The notes under the pieces: generated by a model
The model's input: the letters and a program-made list of their open reading frames with translations, nothing else
Databases searched by the model: none
Told to the model about the DNA's origin: nothing
Position numbers and translations under genes: made by a program
Origin: a virus
IMG/VR virus record: IMGVR_UViG_3300037071_002023
Coordinates: 1 to 22,920 of that record
Length of the DNA: 22,920 nt
Direction: 5' to 3' (one strand)
In this document: piece after piece, positions 15,022 through 20,516 of the stretch
Numbering within the stretch: position 1 is the stretch's first letter
How the letters are laid out: each line of letters begins with the position of its first letter

Positions 15022-16676
15022 CGAGAATCATCGTCCTCGTAGTCCACCATCTGCGGCGGGTACTGGCCGTAAGCGAGCATCTGCATCTCCTGGGCCAGGG
15101 CCGGATCGACAGGTGGAGTAGCGGGCATTGGATTGCCCTCGGCGTCGGCCGTCATCATCGGCTGACCGTCTGGTGTCATACCAGTGGCCATGAGGTTGAA
15201 GGCGGCGATCTGGCTGCGGATGAGATCGAGAGCGCCTTGCTCCTTGGTGTCCTCGATGACCTCTTCGAAGATCTCCCTGATCTTCTGGTCCGGGAACTGC
15301 TGGCCAAGGTCGCGCAAAGCTCCACGGCGCGACTCCAGGCTCATAGCCATCTTTGCCTGGATCTCGTTGATCTTGATGAGCGTGTCCATCGGCATCGGGC
15401 TAGGCCAGTCCACCGAGGAGCGGTATGACACCGGGTCGGCCGGGTCAAGCTGGGGGAACTGGTCGGGCTTCAGGATCGTGGCCGACAGACGTGGGTTGTA
15501 GACGGTCAGGTCAGGGGCGAACAGGAACGCATGCTTCATCACCAACTCGTTGATGCGCTGAAACATGGGTATGTACTGGATCTTCTTGCGCTCATGCTTC
15601 AGCATCAGGGGCTGGTACTGCATGGAGAGGGCCACACCCGATGTGTTGCTGATCGGCTGCATCGTGCCCAGAGCAGCGGCAGGCACGCCCATGAACTCAT
15701 GCATCGACTGCTTCAGAAGCTCCATGTAGCCGAGGGGACCGGTGAAGTTGGTCTGCAACTCCAGGTTCTGGACCTTGGCGTCTTTGTTGCCAATCGCCCA
15801 TACCTTGCGGGCGCCCTTCTCCAGGTTGCTGGCCTTGGCACCAGTGATCACCGTCACCGGAGCGACGTGGTAGTTGATGATGTCGCTGATCTCCGTGGCC
15901 TTCTCGTTGTATTCCCTGTTCAACGAGATGATGTCGTTCGCATCACCTAACCCCCACGGTGAGGAGGCCACGGAGAAGTTGGGGGCGAAGGCGATTGGTA
16001 TCTCACCAATCGGGTTGGGCCGCTGGTCGATGAGTTCATCGTTGATGTACTCCTCGATGGTGTCTTCGGTCATCAGTTCCACGTACGTCATGACCTGGCG
16101 GCTGCCGTCCTGCGCCGTGCCCCAGAACTTGTACTTCAGCTTGAAGCGGATCATCCGAGTGCGGTCGTGCGGATGCCACTCGGGGAAGCAGAAGGCCGGA
16201 TTCAGAGGGAGTATCCGAATCCGACCTTCATGCGGCAGTCCCGCCGTGTCCATGTACGGCTGCTCGTAGGCGACCTTCACGAACACATCACCAGAGACAC
16301 TGCCAAGTTGGCCGATCTCCATAAGGATGGCCTGCTTGTGGTTGTGGACCTCCCACACCTCCTTCAGGGTGTAGGGCACAATGGCTCCGGTGGCCTCGGG
16401 ACTGTGGAAGTTGACGCCCTTGCCAAAGGAAAAGTTGACGACGAAGTCTATGAACGCCCGGACCCAGTTGAAGGTCAGTTGAGGCTCACCGATCTCCCTG
16501 CGATAGGCCCAGTGGTGACCGAGATACCAGGCCCAGTTGTTGGCGTAGCGGTTGAGGCGAGGCCCGTGTACCTCGAACTCCTCGTCAGCGAGTTCAACCA
16601 GGCCCAGAGGGCTGATGGCGATAGTCAGGTCAGACGCTGCCGCCCGATAGGAACCTGGATGGAAGGCGACGGTCAT
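15018..16676 (-). CDS. Portal protein, SPP1 gp6-like (552 aa)
   Basis: Length and pattern fit the SPP1_Gp6-type portal family: an N-terminal region with RYANNWAWYLGHHWAY and NWVRAFIDFVVNFSFGKGV, a beta-rich wing/crown-side region (IRILPLNPAFCFPEWHPHD; MTYVELMTEDTIEEYINDE), then NPIGEIPIAFAPNF, ISLNREYNEKATEISDIINY, and a long stem/clip helix region about residues 290-370 (GPLGYMELLKQSMHEFMGVP, SNTSGVALSMQYQPLMLKHE). The C-terminus is methionine and proline rich and ends acidic (DYEDDDSR). It forms the dodecameric ring through which DNA enters and leaves. The ATG overlaps the stop of the lectin-like gene (ATGA). A MuF-like neighbour is absent; the paralogue triplet occupies that position. Confidence 0.92.
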   Translation of the reverse strand: MTVAFHPGSYRAAASDLTIAISPLGLVELADEEFEVHGPRLNRYANNWAWYLGHHWAYRREIGEPQLTFNWVRAFIDFVVNFSFGKGVNFHSPEATGAIVPYTLKEVWEVHNHKQAILMEIGQLGSVSGDVFVKVAYEQPYMDTAGLPHEGRIRILPLNPAFCFPEWHPHDRTRMIRFKLKYKFWGTAQDGSRQVMTYVELMTEDTIEEYINDELIDQRPNPIGEIPIAFAPNFSVASSPWGLGDANDIISLNREYNEKATEISDIINYHVAPVTVITGAKASNLEKGARKVWAIGNKDAKVQNLELQTNFTGPLGYMELLKQSMHEFMGVPAAALGTMQPISNTSGVALSMQYQPLMLKHERKKIQYIPMFQRINELVMKHAFLFAPDLTVYNPRLSATILKPDQFPQLDPADPVSYRSSVDWPSPMPMDTLIKINEIQAKMAMSLESRRGALRDLGQQFPDQKIREIFEEVIEDTKEQGALDLIRSQIAAFNLMATGMTPDGQPMMTADAEGNPMPATPPVDPALAQEMQMLAYGQYPPQMVDYEDDDSR

Positions 16677-17758
16677 GTGATCGGTGGTCCTGACGAGTCA
16701 AGGACGGGCGTACCCGCCTGGGTGAGGGTGCGTCCGTTGCCGCTGTCGTCGGTGGTCTGCGGCCCGGCGTTGAACTTGTAGTTGGCCCACAGGTTGGCGG
16801 TCTTCACCGGAGCGTAAGTGGCGGCCTCTGCCTGGATCTCCGCTTCGGTGAGGGCGACCGTCCATATCTTGACTGCGGCGAGCGACCCGTTCAGGAAGTC
16901 GCTGGTGCCGAATCCGTCGCCACCGAGGTACATCGTGTTGGCATCAGCGGGTCCGCTGACCGCCTGGTTGGCATTGGTGACCGCCGTCGTCCACGATCCC
17001 CCGGCGATCTTCCAGCCGAAGATGTCGGTGCCTGGTCCAGCGCTGGTGTCGTTGACACAACCAACGAAGAACCATGTGCCGACCGCCATCGACACACCTG
17101 ATGAGACGTTGCCGCCGCCTGACGTGTCACGTCGCAGCGTCGTGCCATCGGCCAAGGTGGAGATCATGTAGTAGTTGCTAGCCGCGTTGTCCTGGCAGAA
17201 GAAACATGAGAGGGCGTTGCGGTCGACGGCGATCTTGGCCCAGAACGTGATCGTGAAGGAGGCGCCCAACCCACTGGCCGAGCGGGAATACTTCATTGTG
17301 CCTGCGTTGAAGCGCACCGCCGAAGGCGTCGCCCCGGCGTGGTATGTGTCGGTGACCGCCACTGTGGAGACGATGGTGACACCGCGGCCCGTCTCGTTGT
17401 AGTTCGTCCCACTAGCAACACCGGCCGTGAAGTTGACGGTGTTGGAGATCTTCTCGCCCGACTGCTTGACCACGCCGATGGGGATGGTCCCGTCAGCACC
17501 GCTGTCGGGCATCGGACTGAAACGAGCCACCGTCAACTGGGTGGCCGAGACGTAGGTCGTCGCCTGCGGGCTGTAGTTGGCGTAGACCACCGACCCGTTG
17601 ACGAAACCGGTGCCGTTGACCGTCAACGTCTGAAGGCCCGAGGTCCGCAGGGCCGACGTCGGGGACAGGGTGGTGACGGTGCAGGTTGCGGTGACCCCGG
17701 TGTTGACAGCGGGGTCCGTCGACCTGCCCGAGCGCCAACCACCTCCGACGTACGACAT
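16673..17758 (-). CDS. IPT/TIG-like plus LamG-like lectin virion protein next to portal (361 aa)
   Basis: Residues about 25-112 look like an IPT/TIG Ig-like domain (TTLSPTSALRTSGLQTLTVN, then GTGFVNGSVVYA, ATQLTVARF and VKQSGEKISNTVNF). Residues 118-140 are one unit of the repeat found in the 1569 aa tailspike (NYNETGRGVTIVSTVAVTDT). Residues about 146-361 are a LamG/concanavalin-A-like domain closely related to both in the tailspike: SAVRFNAGTMKYSRSASGL, AAVKIWTVALTEAEIQAEA and DSGNGRTLT. The protein ends exactly at that domain's boundary (DSSGPPIT), where the tailspike continues. It probably binds glycans on the virion surface, by inference. Its stop and start overlap both neighbours, so it is co-translated with the portal, an unusual place for a lectin gene. 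Confidence 0.86.
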   Translation of the reverse strand: MSYVGGGWRSGRSTDPAVNTGVTATCTVTTLSPTSALRTSGLQTLTVNGTGFVNGSVVYANYSPQATTYVSATQLTVARFSPMPDSGADGTIPIGVVKQSGEKISNTVNFTAGVASGTNYNETGRGVTIVSTVAVTDTYHAGATPSAVRFNAGTMKYSRSASGLGASFTITFWAKIAVDRNALSCFFCQDNAASNYYMISTLADGTTLRRDTSGGGNVSSGVSMAVGTWFFVGCVNDTSAGPGTDIFGWKIAGGSWTTAVTNANQAVSGPADANTMYLGGDGFGTSDFLNGSLAAVKIWTVALTEAEIQAEAATYAPVKTANLWANYKFNAGPQTTDDSGNGRTLTQAGTPVLDSSGPPIT

Positions 17759-18671: not shown

Positions 18672-18927
18672 GACCCGGGCCGTAACCAGTGCCGATCCGG
18701 TTGCTGTCCGTCACCTGTCCAGCAGACAACGCCCCGTACGTAGGGGTGGCCGCAGCTTGTATGGCCTGTCTTGGAGTGTCCCCGACACCGCTGGCCGCAG
18801 TACCGGCTGGCGGGGAGGCCATACCTGCCCGGGGTGACATTGGCGCCGTGTTCAGGGGGGAGAAGCTCGACCGGGCCGGGTTGGCTCCCTGGTCCATGCC
18901 GTAGCGACCTCCGATTCCTCTGGCCAT
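18667..18927 (-). CDS. Small Ala/Gly/Pro-rich unknown protein (86 aa)
   Basis: The ATG at 18927 overlaps the stop of the 58 aa gene by one base (TGATG); a GTG one codon upstream is the alternative. Composition is low-complexity: Gly, Ala, Pro and Ser dominate (ARGIGGRYGMDQGANPARSS; MASPPAGTAASGVGDTPRQA; ATPTYGALSAGQVTDSN). It is probably disordered. No family is recognised. The gene is supported mainly by exact overlaps with neighbours and the absence of any better frame. Confidence 0.58.
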   Translation of the reverse strand: MARGIGGRYGMDQGANPARSSFSPLNTAPMSPRAGMASPPAGTAASGVGDTPRQAIQAAATPTYGALSAGQVTDSNRIGTGYGPGR

Positions 18928-19103
18928 CACTTACCTGCTCTCGTCTTGGCTGCCTTCTTGGCCATCTGCGAACGACGCTTCGGTCCCTGTGCCGAGGCGT
19001 TGGAGATCTTCGCAGCCTTCTCCTTGGAGTAGCCCTCATCTTTCAACGCCTCGTACTCGTCAGGCTTCTTGATCGACGGGCCTGGTGACTTACCTCCAGG
19101 CAT
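18927..19103 (-). CDS. Small basic helical protein, resembles conserved actinobacterial/phage small proteins (58 aa)
   Basis: Starts at ATG 19103, overlapping the upstream stop (TGATG), and ends in a TGA that overlaps the next ATG. The core reads KPDEYEALKDEGYSKEKAAK, then ISNASAQG, then a lysine-rich tail. This EYEAL-[KR]-D-x-G-x-SKE[KR]AA-[KR]-I-[SA]NA pattern is one I know from short conserved proteins of actinobacteria and their phages, often annotated only as a domain of unknown function. The helix-turn arrangement and charge would suit nucleic-acid or protein binding. Function unknown. It is short but the motif makes it one of the better supported small genes here. Confidence 0.75.
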   Translation of the reverse strand: MPGGKSPGPSIKKPDEYEALKDEGYSKEKAAKISNASAQGPKRRSQMAKKAAKTRAGK

Positions 19104-19285
19104 CAGAGGCCAGCTTCCAGCATGCGCCGTTCCAGCGACCCCAGGCGGGGATCAATGGTCCCGGCCTGCAACCCCGGCCCAGTGACCCGGCTCTGCTGGA
19201 CCCGGGCATCGTGATCCTCCCGGCTGACCTTGCGCCCCGGGTGGAACGCCAGGTCGGGGTGGTCGGTTTCGTGTCCGCTAGCCAT
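19103..19285 (-). CDS. Small unknown protein (60 aa)
   Basis: The ATG at 19285 follows AGGAGG by 4 nt, which decides the start over an in-frame ATG five codons upstream. The product is hydrophilic with histidines at the N-terminus (SGHETDHPDLAFHPGRKVSR) and a C-terminal RLGSLERRMLEAGL helix. It is the first minus-strand gene after the plus-strand interruption, with its start 32 nt from the divergent start of the 84 aa gene. No family recognised. Confidence 0.65.
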   Translation of the reverse strand: MASGHETDHPDLAFHPGRKVSREDHDARVQQSRVTGPGLQAGTIDPRLGSLERRMLEAGL

Positions 19286-19317
19286 GAAACCTCCTCTCAT
19301 TGTGATACCATGGGGGC

Positions 19318-19572
19318 ATGGAGTTGAGACTGACGAGCGAAGGCAGCGAAGTGGTGGTCGAGAACATCCGGGCGTTCCTCACCCTCGATGCTTCTGACGA
19401 GACGCAGTACGCCGAGAGCCTGAATCGTCTCCTGGCGGTGCAGTTCATGTTCGAAGACATCCTGCGACAGGCAGACACCAACGCCGAACCCCTCACCTCG
19501 ATGGCTTTGAAGCTTCGCACGACCAACCCCTACTACACGTCGATCTTGCCGAACGACGGCCTCAGGCCGTAG
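19318..19572 (+). CDS. Lone plus-strand unknown protein (84 aa)
   Basis: The only credible plus-strand gene. Codon third positions are G/C rich as in the other genes, and the protein looks real: a short beta start (MELRLTSEGSEVVVENIRAF), then an acidic amphipathic helix region (DASDETQYAESLNRLLAVQF, MFEDILRQADTNAEPL) and a short tail (TTNPYYTSILPNDGLRP). The minus-strand frames of this 247 nt gap give only arginine/serine-rich nonsense. It is divergent from the 60 aa gene and overlaps the 327 aa gene tail-to-tail by 40 nt. No good ribosome binding site is visible (GGGGGC before the ATG), so it may be leaderless or weakly translated. Two hairpins follow its 3' end. Family and function are unknown; a small regulator or moron-type gene is possible. 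Confidence 0.58.
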   Translation: MELRLTSEGSEVVVENIRAFLTLDASDETQYAESLNRLLAVQFMFEDILRQADTNAEPLTSMALKLRTTNPYYTSILPNDGLRP

Positions 19573-20516
19573 TTCTCGGGCAGGAACTGCCTGCCCATGT
19601 GCGACTGACGGGTGTTCTCCAGCTTGGTGTTGGACGCCTTGCGCGCCTTGCGGGCGTCGGGGTTCTCGATCACCTTGCGCTGCTGGTGGGCGTACCAGAT
19701 ACCGCCCAGGAACGCTGACGGCTCGATATGCGTGCCAGTCTGGCGCATGATCTGCTGACGGGCCGCTTCCGATGCCCCCTGGAAGTGAGCCACCCGGCCC
19801 TTACCCGACAGCCCTCGACTCGTCGCGTAAGGGATGTCGGTGCGGTTGACCCCGGCGTCGTGATAGTGCGTGTCGACCGTGGCGTGGGGGTAGCTGGGAT
19901 CAGCGATGGTGCGCCCGAAGTCCCCGAGCTTCAGGTCGCCCAAGGTGTCCAATGGCTCGCCCTCGTAGTTGCCCGAACGGATCGACCAAGCGTTCATGAA
20001 CTCCCGGCTGCCGATAAAGCCGAGTGGAGTACCGGCCAACCCCGACTTCCCCCGATGATGCTTGGCCTCGGCCTTGGCCGACTCCGCTTCGGCGTGCCAG
20101 TGGCTCGCCTCTGACGTGTCGCCACGCTTGCGCGCAGCGGTGCGCCGAGATGCCGCCGAAGCGCCCCGACTGGCTGCATCAGCAGCCTTCGTCATGTGCT
20201 GCACTTGCTTGTCGCTGATGTCGCCGTGGACCAACTGGAGTCCCTGGATCCGGTTCATCTCAGCCTCGTTGGCCGGGGAAAGATGGGCCAGCAGGGCGGC
20301 GCCCGCTTCGTGTGTCTGGCCGATGGCCTCACCGATGTGTTGGGCGTCCTCGTTCCATGAGGGGAAGAACGCCTCCCCGTGCTCTCGGTGTATGTCGGGC
20401 GCGTTGGCGTAGGCCCGGACGTAGTTGCCGGTGATCAACTGCTTCTGCTTGGGCGTCCACAAACCGCCCGGTGCCTCGCCTGTGACGGGCTTGAAGTCCC
20501 TGGAGGTGGTCTTCAC
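19533..20516 (-). CDS. Unknown phage protein between terminase and portal (327 aa)
   Basis: The GTG at 20516 overlaps the previous stop by 4 nt (GTGA), with GAGGAG 10 nt upstream. Residues 1-110 include LWTPKQKQLITGNYVRAYAN and HIGEAIGQTHEAGAALLAHL. Residues 110-165 are an Ala/Arg-rich helix (ASRRTAARKRGDTSEASHWH). Residues about 170-300 contain KLGDFGRTIADPSYPHATVD, THYHDAG, GLSGKGRVAHFQGASEAA and SAFLGGIWYAHQQ. The last block loosely resembles a domain of unknown function in actinobacterial phage proteins (a fixed K-x-x-x-F/D..I..P....TVDTH core followed by A..A......P...Q....W). The histidines and aspartate of VDTHYHD could be a metal or catalytic site, but this is speculation. The 3' end overlaps the plus-strand gene. 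Confidence 0.75.
   Translation of the reverse strand: MKTTSRDFKPVTGEAPGGLWTPKQKQLITGNYVRAYANAPDIHREHGEAFFPSWNEDAQHIGEAIGQTHEAGAALLAHLSPANEAEMNRIQGLQLVHGDISDKQVQHMTKAADAASRGASAASRRTAARKRGDTSEASHWHAEAESAKAEAKHHRGKSGLAGTPLGFIGSREFMNAWSIRSGNYEGEPLDTLGDLKLGDFGRTIADPSYPHATVDTHYHDAGVNRTDIPYATSRGLSGKGRVAHFQGASEAARQQIMRQTGTHIEPSAFLGGIWYAHQQRKVIENPDARKARKASNTKLENTRQSHMGRQFLPENYGLRPSFGKIDV
19556..19596 (+). terminator. Two adjacent hairpins at the end of the plus-strand gene
   Basis: ACGGC-CTCAG-GCCGT (19556-19570) touches the stop codon of the 84 aa gene, and GGGCAGG-AACTG-CCTGCCC (19578-19596, perfect 7 bp) follows six bases after it. Both also lie in the 3' coding part of the 327 aa gene on the minus strand. 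Neither has a T-run, so termination is only a possibility. Confidence 0.4.

Follow-up and report, generated by a model that had tools for sequence, protein, structure and literature searches.

The 84-aa open reading frame (ORF) that runs antisense at positions 19318..19572 (plus strand) of the window, i.e. the whole 22,920-nt stretch of the virus record IMGVR_UViG_3300037071_002023, is a real protein-coding gene as judged from its codon usage. It converges tail-to-tail on a gene of the DUF7178 family, and by gene order this convergent pairing recurs across uncultured phages. We tentatively propose, as a serious possibility rather than a probable conclusion, that the ORF is a gene with a leaderless promoter and the window's version of a module consisting of a DUF7178 enzyme and a small acidic helical protein, the latter being likely the inhibitor of the enzyme. 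The pairing lies outside the earlier sequence-only reading of this inverted gene.

The ORF starts with ATG and its product, the candidate partner or inhibitor of the DUF7178 protein, is predicted to be all-helical with a pI of 4.4. Scored with a codon log-odds model trained on the long minus-strand genes of the window, it reaches 37.7 bits, i.e. 0.45 bits per codon, and its GC content by codon position (0.55/0.39/0.84) resembles that of the window's other genes. ORF length alone is no proof in GC-rich DNA, since 58 plus-strand ORFs of the window reach 60 aa. Such long antisense ORFs could suggest that this one is a spurious product of GC-rich antisense sequence, but by codon score it ranks first among the 58. 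The runner-up has 0.25 bits per codon and none of the 57 others exceeds this value. The sole sizeable minus-strand ORF opposite (82 aa, TTG start, 19278-19526) scores -8.1 bits, and the strand opposite the 84-aa ORF is non-coding. With coding codon usage unique to this ORF and no sense gene facing it, a spurious origin is close to refuted and can be given hardly any weight. The sequence-only reading had described a credible inverted gene of 84 aa with no plausible protein on the opposite strand, divergent from a 60-aa gene and overlapping the 327-aa gene by 40 nt, and all of this stands. The overlap covers 19533..19572. The divergent gene lies at 19103..19285 (minus strand) with AGGAGG before its ATG; the ORF list gives it 65 aa, from an ATG further upstream, and 60 aa is the best reading. 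Scans of the window for tRNA genes and Rfam families gave no match.

By sequence the 84-aa protein is an orphan, though its genomic arrangement is not. Searching phages with tblastn gave one chance match only (E 0.9), plasmids one match (E 5) and the PDB one match (E 0.29), and there was no match in bacterial genome contigs or in Pfam, PHROGs, NCBIfam and PADLOC. Among viral contigs its only relative is an identical copy in IMGVR_UViG_3300037070_008532, which is the same virus as the window across 16,900 nt. The predicted structure of the protein alone is helical, with a pLDDT of 66. The earlier reading had called for homologues in other phages and counted their absence against its gene. Formally, what was found is almost such an absence, the same-virus contig apart, but related phages have, at this location, another gene built in this way.

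The overlapped gene (19533..20516, minus strand) encodes a 327-aa protein that matches PF23802 (E 1.3e-8) and phrog_3842, and its 3' end lies within the overlap. Relatives of DUF7178/phrog_3842 in some Gordonia and Mycobacterium phages were annotated as "glycosylase" by some depositors. The fold inference is drawn from the family member of locus L104, for which AF2 gave a model with a pLDDT of 92. Aligned with VIA-align, this model matches 8-oxoguanine glycosylases (3knt, Z 9.5; 3n0u, 9.2), endonuclease III (1orn, 8.1) and MagIII (7.9), a Z of 9.5 being moderate evidence for a mostly helical protein; among the matches listed, the 50 rows are all HhH glycosylases or DUF2419. Foldseek of the same model against the PDB gave no significant match (E 0.17-0.36), with endonuclease III (E 0.17) and then AGOG (E 0.22) at the top ranks. 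A profile of 24 DUF7178 sequences found no match in the PDB; one built from five sequences had returned AGOG (1xqo) at E 0.98, below significance, and was set aside. K146, F150, D164, D169, R182 and W229 (L104 numbering) are among the residues invariant in all 24 aligned DUF7178 sequences, the window's included. In the L104 model K146 and D164 each open a helix, and these two residues may correspond to the catalytic Lys and Asp that follow the hairpin in helix-hairpin-helix (HhH-GPD) enzymes. Viral models matching the fold come from phage Tefunt, cyanophage S-CBP42, phage Myrna and large polyvalent-type proteins, and an ART-PolyVal protein is one of the large phage proteins in which a DUF7178-like fold is seen. 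We predict from these models that DUF7178 is HhH-GPD DNA-glycosylase-like, a DNA-cutting enzyme. DUF7178 was nowhere mentioned in a full-text search of the open literature (5.39 million papers), and a pattern scan of bacterial genomes found none. Searches for close relatives of the DUF7178 proteins of the window and of L029 led back only to the contigs that encode them or to copies of the same virus; the search with that of L006 gave one further identical copy (L125).

To see how the gene is placed in other phages, the window's portal protein was used as query, which gave 80 related viral loci to which a codon-based gene finder was applied. An antisense ORF was called upstream of the portal gene in 12 of them: in 8/8 loci with a DUF7178 gene versus 4/72 without (L014, L030, L032 and L045), the 72 including partly covered intervals as many of the loci are short. 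PF23802 exceeded its cut-off in 7 of 50 records, all seven with a convergent small ORF, and in none of 31 others. The eighth DUF7178 portal locus, L040, was recognised later and also has the convergent small ORF. L014, L017 and L019 gave weak DUF7178 matches that fell short of the cut-off, and these were excluded from the DUF7178 counts. In L029, L031, L006 and L042 the antisense ORF likewise has a DUF7178 gene as its sense-strand neighbour, and the pair of L029 overlaps by the same 40 nt as that of the window. In L091 and L093 the two genes do not overlap.

An independent scan for DUF7178 gave 33 loci, and PF23802 was over the cut-off in all 24 records of these that were tested. A convergent small gene is present in 25 of the 33, 22 being recognised by a scripted family pattern and three (L099, L100 and L106) from ORF lists or the index. 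Adding L004, L006 and L029, which the scan had missed, gives 36 uncultured-phage contigs with DUF7178: 28 have a convergent small acidic gene, seven do not (L109, L112-L115, L118 and L119) and one (L117) ends at the gene. By comparison, of the 115 other sense genes in nine such loci, a convergent neighbour was called for only 2. Eleven of the 33 loci (L098-L108) have no homologue of the window's portal or terminase in the stretch examined, and those tested carry endolysin, RuvC-like resolvase or metallo-phosphoesterase genes close by; the pair is therefore not tied to one context but occurs in at least two. In the isolated phages examined (Dagobah, PhinkBoden, Scout, Haizum and Yvonnetastic), none of the five DUF7178 genes has a convergent partner; the genes annotated next to them share their orientation. 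Since seven of the 36 contigs and all five isolated-phage genes are without it, the enzyme does not need the partner everywhere. Our literature searches found no description of such a pair.

Two further layouts were seen in these loci. In three distinct sequences (L109:3462-3722, L112:4265-4540 and L118:4379-4588) the partnerless DUF7178 gene is followed by a small gene on the same strand, in place of the convergent one, whose product has an apparent membrane segment. Two other small antisense genes, similar to each other but seemingly unrelated to the first family, are found in L014:3425-3637 and L030:4835-5032 (minus strand), with products starting MAENQIKG... and VATNQLTG.... TATCCT and TAGCAT stand 7 and 6 nt, respectively, before their start codons, and they converge on a gene of 149 or 189 aa without Pfam match. 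The convergent layout may extend to other cargo genes.

The start region of the 84-aa ORF has a candidate -10 box, TACCAT (19306..19311, plus strand), that ends 6 nt before the ATG, just upstream of the divergent 60-aa gene. This is a leaderless layout; there is no Shine-Dalgarno sequence before the ATG, and a scan for standard sigma-70 pairs found none, nor is there a recognisable -35 box. In Streptomyces lividans TANNNT is the -10 consensus and about 20% of ORFs are leaderless, with AUG preferred (PMC6742748). The host of the window is assumed to be an actinobacterium, from its nearest phages. Of the 21 distinct partners, 16 have a TANNNT box that ends 5-8 nt upstream of the start codon, versus 21 of 395 sense genes (control sets of 7/115 and 14/280; Fisher p 7e-15). 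Base shuffles gave a mean of 1.35 such cases and never 16 in 5000. For the count of 21, the near-identical partners L012, L092 and L108 had been removed beforehand; L103, where a residue without an accepted start codon was used, was scored as a miss; and the start of L100 was shifted to the homologous MEIS after the first result, the unshifted count being 15/21. Three partners (L028, L101 and L104) have a Shine-Dalgarno sequence instead. The clearest promoter of the set is that of L102:4367-4516 (minus strand): TTGACG, 17 nt, TACGCT, 6 nt, ATG. The small gene of the window probably has its own leaderless promoter, whose activity we infer from these boxes, and their presence at the start of the partners leads to the prediction that it is transcribed alone by the host polymerase. 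A perfect inverted repeat, CCATG-GGGG-CATGG, spans the start codon at 19308-19321. No second copy exists in the window, where 0.01 would be expected by chance; noticed post hoc, the repeat is a possible operator.

At the other end, two GC-rich hairpins (19556..19597, plus strand; -31.7 kcal/mol) lie over and beyond the stop codon. They had been pointed out in the sequence-only reading and are indeed present, but they are not exceptional, as 16 of 200 shuffles fold equally well (z -1.44), and they have no T-run of a terminator. That reading had also proposed that the gene is an autonomous moron or regulator. Such a gene would have its own host or phage target and no functional tie to DUF7178, while its convergence might dampen the late operon. 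The own -10 box would fit, as would the orphan sequence and the fact that no antisense ORF was called in the close relatives L007 and L009, whose portal proteins are 90 and 89% identical to that of the window. An inverted gene with its own predicted promoter is retained from the proposal. What is not retained is a free-standing gene at a random place, given the 28 of 36 contigs with the pairing. The recurrence of the same pair in diverged phages and contexts, set against the rarity of convergent neighbours among other sense genes, and the lack of a visible terminator at the small gene make an autonomous moron rather unlikely, although it is the alternative that we take most seriously.

The partner proteins form a recognisable group. 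In all 24 rows they are acidic (pI 4.1-5.7) and small (50-88 aa), and the core partners share the pattern MIELT-E-F---Y-AL--VN-PY---EV---VA-E--AW. In leave-one-out HMM searches core partners were recovered with 54.9 (L091), 46.8 (L040) and 40.5 bits (L111), while L029 (12.5 bits) and L006 (12.3 bits) were just above the best unrelated ORFs. The protein of the window was missed (1.5 bits, rank 315 among 11919 ORFs). It shows weak similarity to the L029 partner only (8.8 bits by phmmer within a set of 20 sequences). As the sequence profile fails, what assigns the window's protein to the family is where its gene lies, its size, its acidity and its promoter. Its nearest partner is that of L029 (29%), which also has the nearest DUF7178 (46%). 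More generally, DUF7178 and partner distances correlate (r 0.51, 0/5000 permutations), for which shared ancestry without interaction could suffice. For the partners of L031 and L104, too, the closest matches were confined to the contigs of origin or to the same virus, and the L104 partner had no match in isolated phages.

This conservation bears on whether the small gene acts as a protein at all. The two genes could be a travelling cassette that moves together by adjacency only, or the small gene could serve as an antisense RNA on the DUF7178 mRNA, in line with the complementary 3' ends that the tail-to-tail overlaps give in most pairs. However, sequence is conserved among the diverged core partners, as the scores of L091 and L040 indicate, which points to selection on the protein, and in the pairs of L091 and L093 the genes do not overlap. 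We consider this explanation improbable. Crude dN/dS values, based on very few changes, were 0.44-0.93 in three comparisons among L093, L012 and L092, and 0.07 for L105/L108.

In the proposed module, the DUF7178 gene sits in the sense-strand operon and the gene for the small acidic protein runs against its 3' end. The small protein would be the cognate partner of the glycosylase-like enzyme, most likely its inhibitor or antidote, and could occupy the DNA-binding face of the enzyme by imitating DNA. Its leaderless mRNA would be transcribed by the host RNA polymerase without use of the late promoter, and the protein may already be present when the late operon yields the enzyme beside the phage DNA. 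Given the convergent orientation and the leaderless promoter, the inhibitor would thus escape late control. Alternatively, the small protein could help the enzyme, as a chaperone, loading factor or activator, for example for packaging into the capsid. Its gene is located between those for terminase and portal, and the large phage proteins with DUF7178-like folds include ART-PolyVal, a class that Iyer et al. proposed to be injected from the virion (PMC5512222). But a chaperone is normally co-expressed on the same strand, and from a leaderless promoter of its own the small gene would probably be expressed at another time, so that a helper role appears distinctly unlikely, though somewhat less so than the cassette or antisense RNA. 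The inhibitor remains our preferred reading. A bolder form of it is that the pair represents an enzyme-antidote system with a new layout, in which a glycosylase-like enzyme, produced together with the head proteins and perhaps entering the next cell along with the phage DNA, would be restrained inside the producing cell by a convergent, leaderless, small acidic protein whose expression precedes that of the late operon. The antidotes would diverge so fast that some are known by place and promoter. This broader proposal is speculative, and we hold it to be unlikely as a whole, slightly more so than the autonomous moron.

Other genes of the window and of related loci are worth recording. Positions 18927-19103 encode a 58-aa DUF7218 protein (E 1.6e-17), and just before the portal gene a 361-aa protein (16673-17758) has Laminin_G_3 and weak TIG matches. 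The genes just before the portal in L031 (7622-8128) and L040 (900-1433) have what we take to be an HNH-like look. In L031 the first 21 residues of its product are almost identical to those of the portal protein (MSGVSFQSPSYRASQSDLTIA), which looks like a portal start split or duplicated by a homing endonuclease.

With the recurring pairing, an isolated backward gene becomes a repeatable genetic module of uncultured phages. A bench-testable function can be put forward both for DUF7178 and for a small-protein family whose member in the window has no match in Pfam, PHROGs, NCBIfam or PADLOC. Should inhibition of the enzyme by the small protein prove true, the pair would illustrate how a phage can encode an enzyme that damages DNA and yet not harm itself. 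Similar pairs may be sought by a simple rule, namely a single ORF on the opposite strand whose start codon is closely preceded by TANNNT.

Several known systems resemble parts of this arrangement. The 327-aa protein of the window is itself a member of DUF7178/phrog_3842, but the members in the five isolated phages differ by their same-strand neighbours and have no convergent partner. In the polyvalent proteins of phages (Iyer et al. 2017, PMC5512222), enzyme domains are encoded close to the head genes and injection has been proposed for them, and DUF7178-like folds lie inside such large proteins; the word glycosylase has 0 occurrences in the text of that paper. Here, by contrast, a solo domain is accompanied by a separate convergent partner. 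Ugi and p56, small proteins with which phages inhibit uracil-DNA glycosylase, resemble the role proposed here, and p56 inserts a helix into the DNA cleft of that enzyme (PMC3794593). They have other folds and target Ung-family enzymes, not the phage's own HhH-GPD-like enzyme; the present pair is a convergent one inside a single phage. Type II toxin-antitoxin systems are alike in placing a potentially DNA-damaging enzyme beside a small acidic protein. Their two genes, however, form one operon, whereas here the genes converge and the small one has its own predicted promoter.
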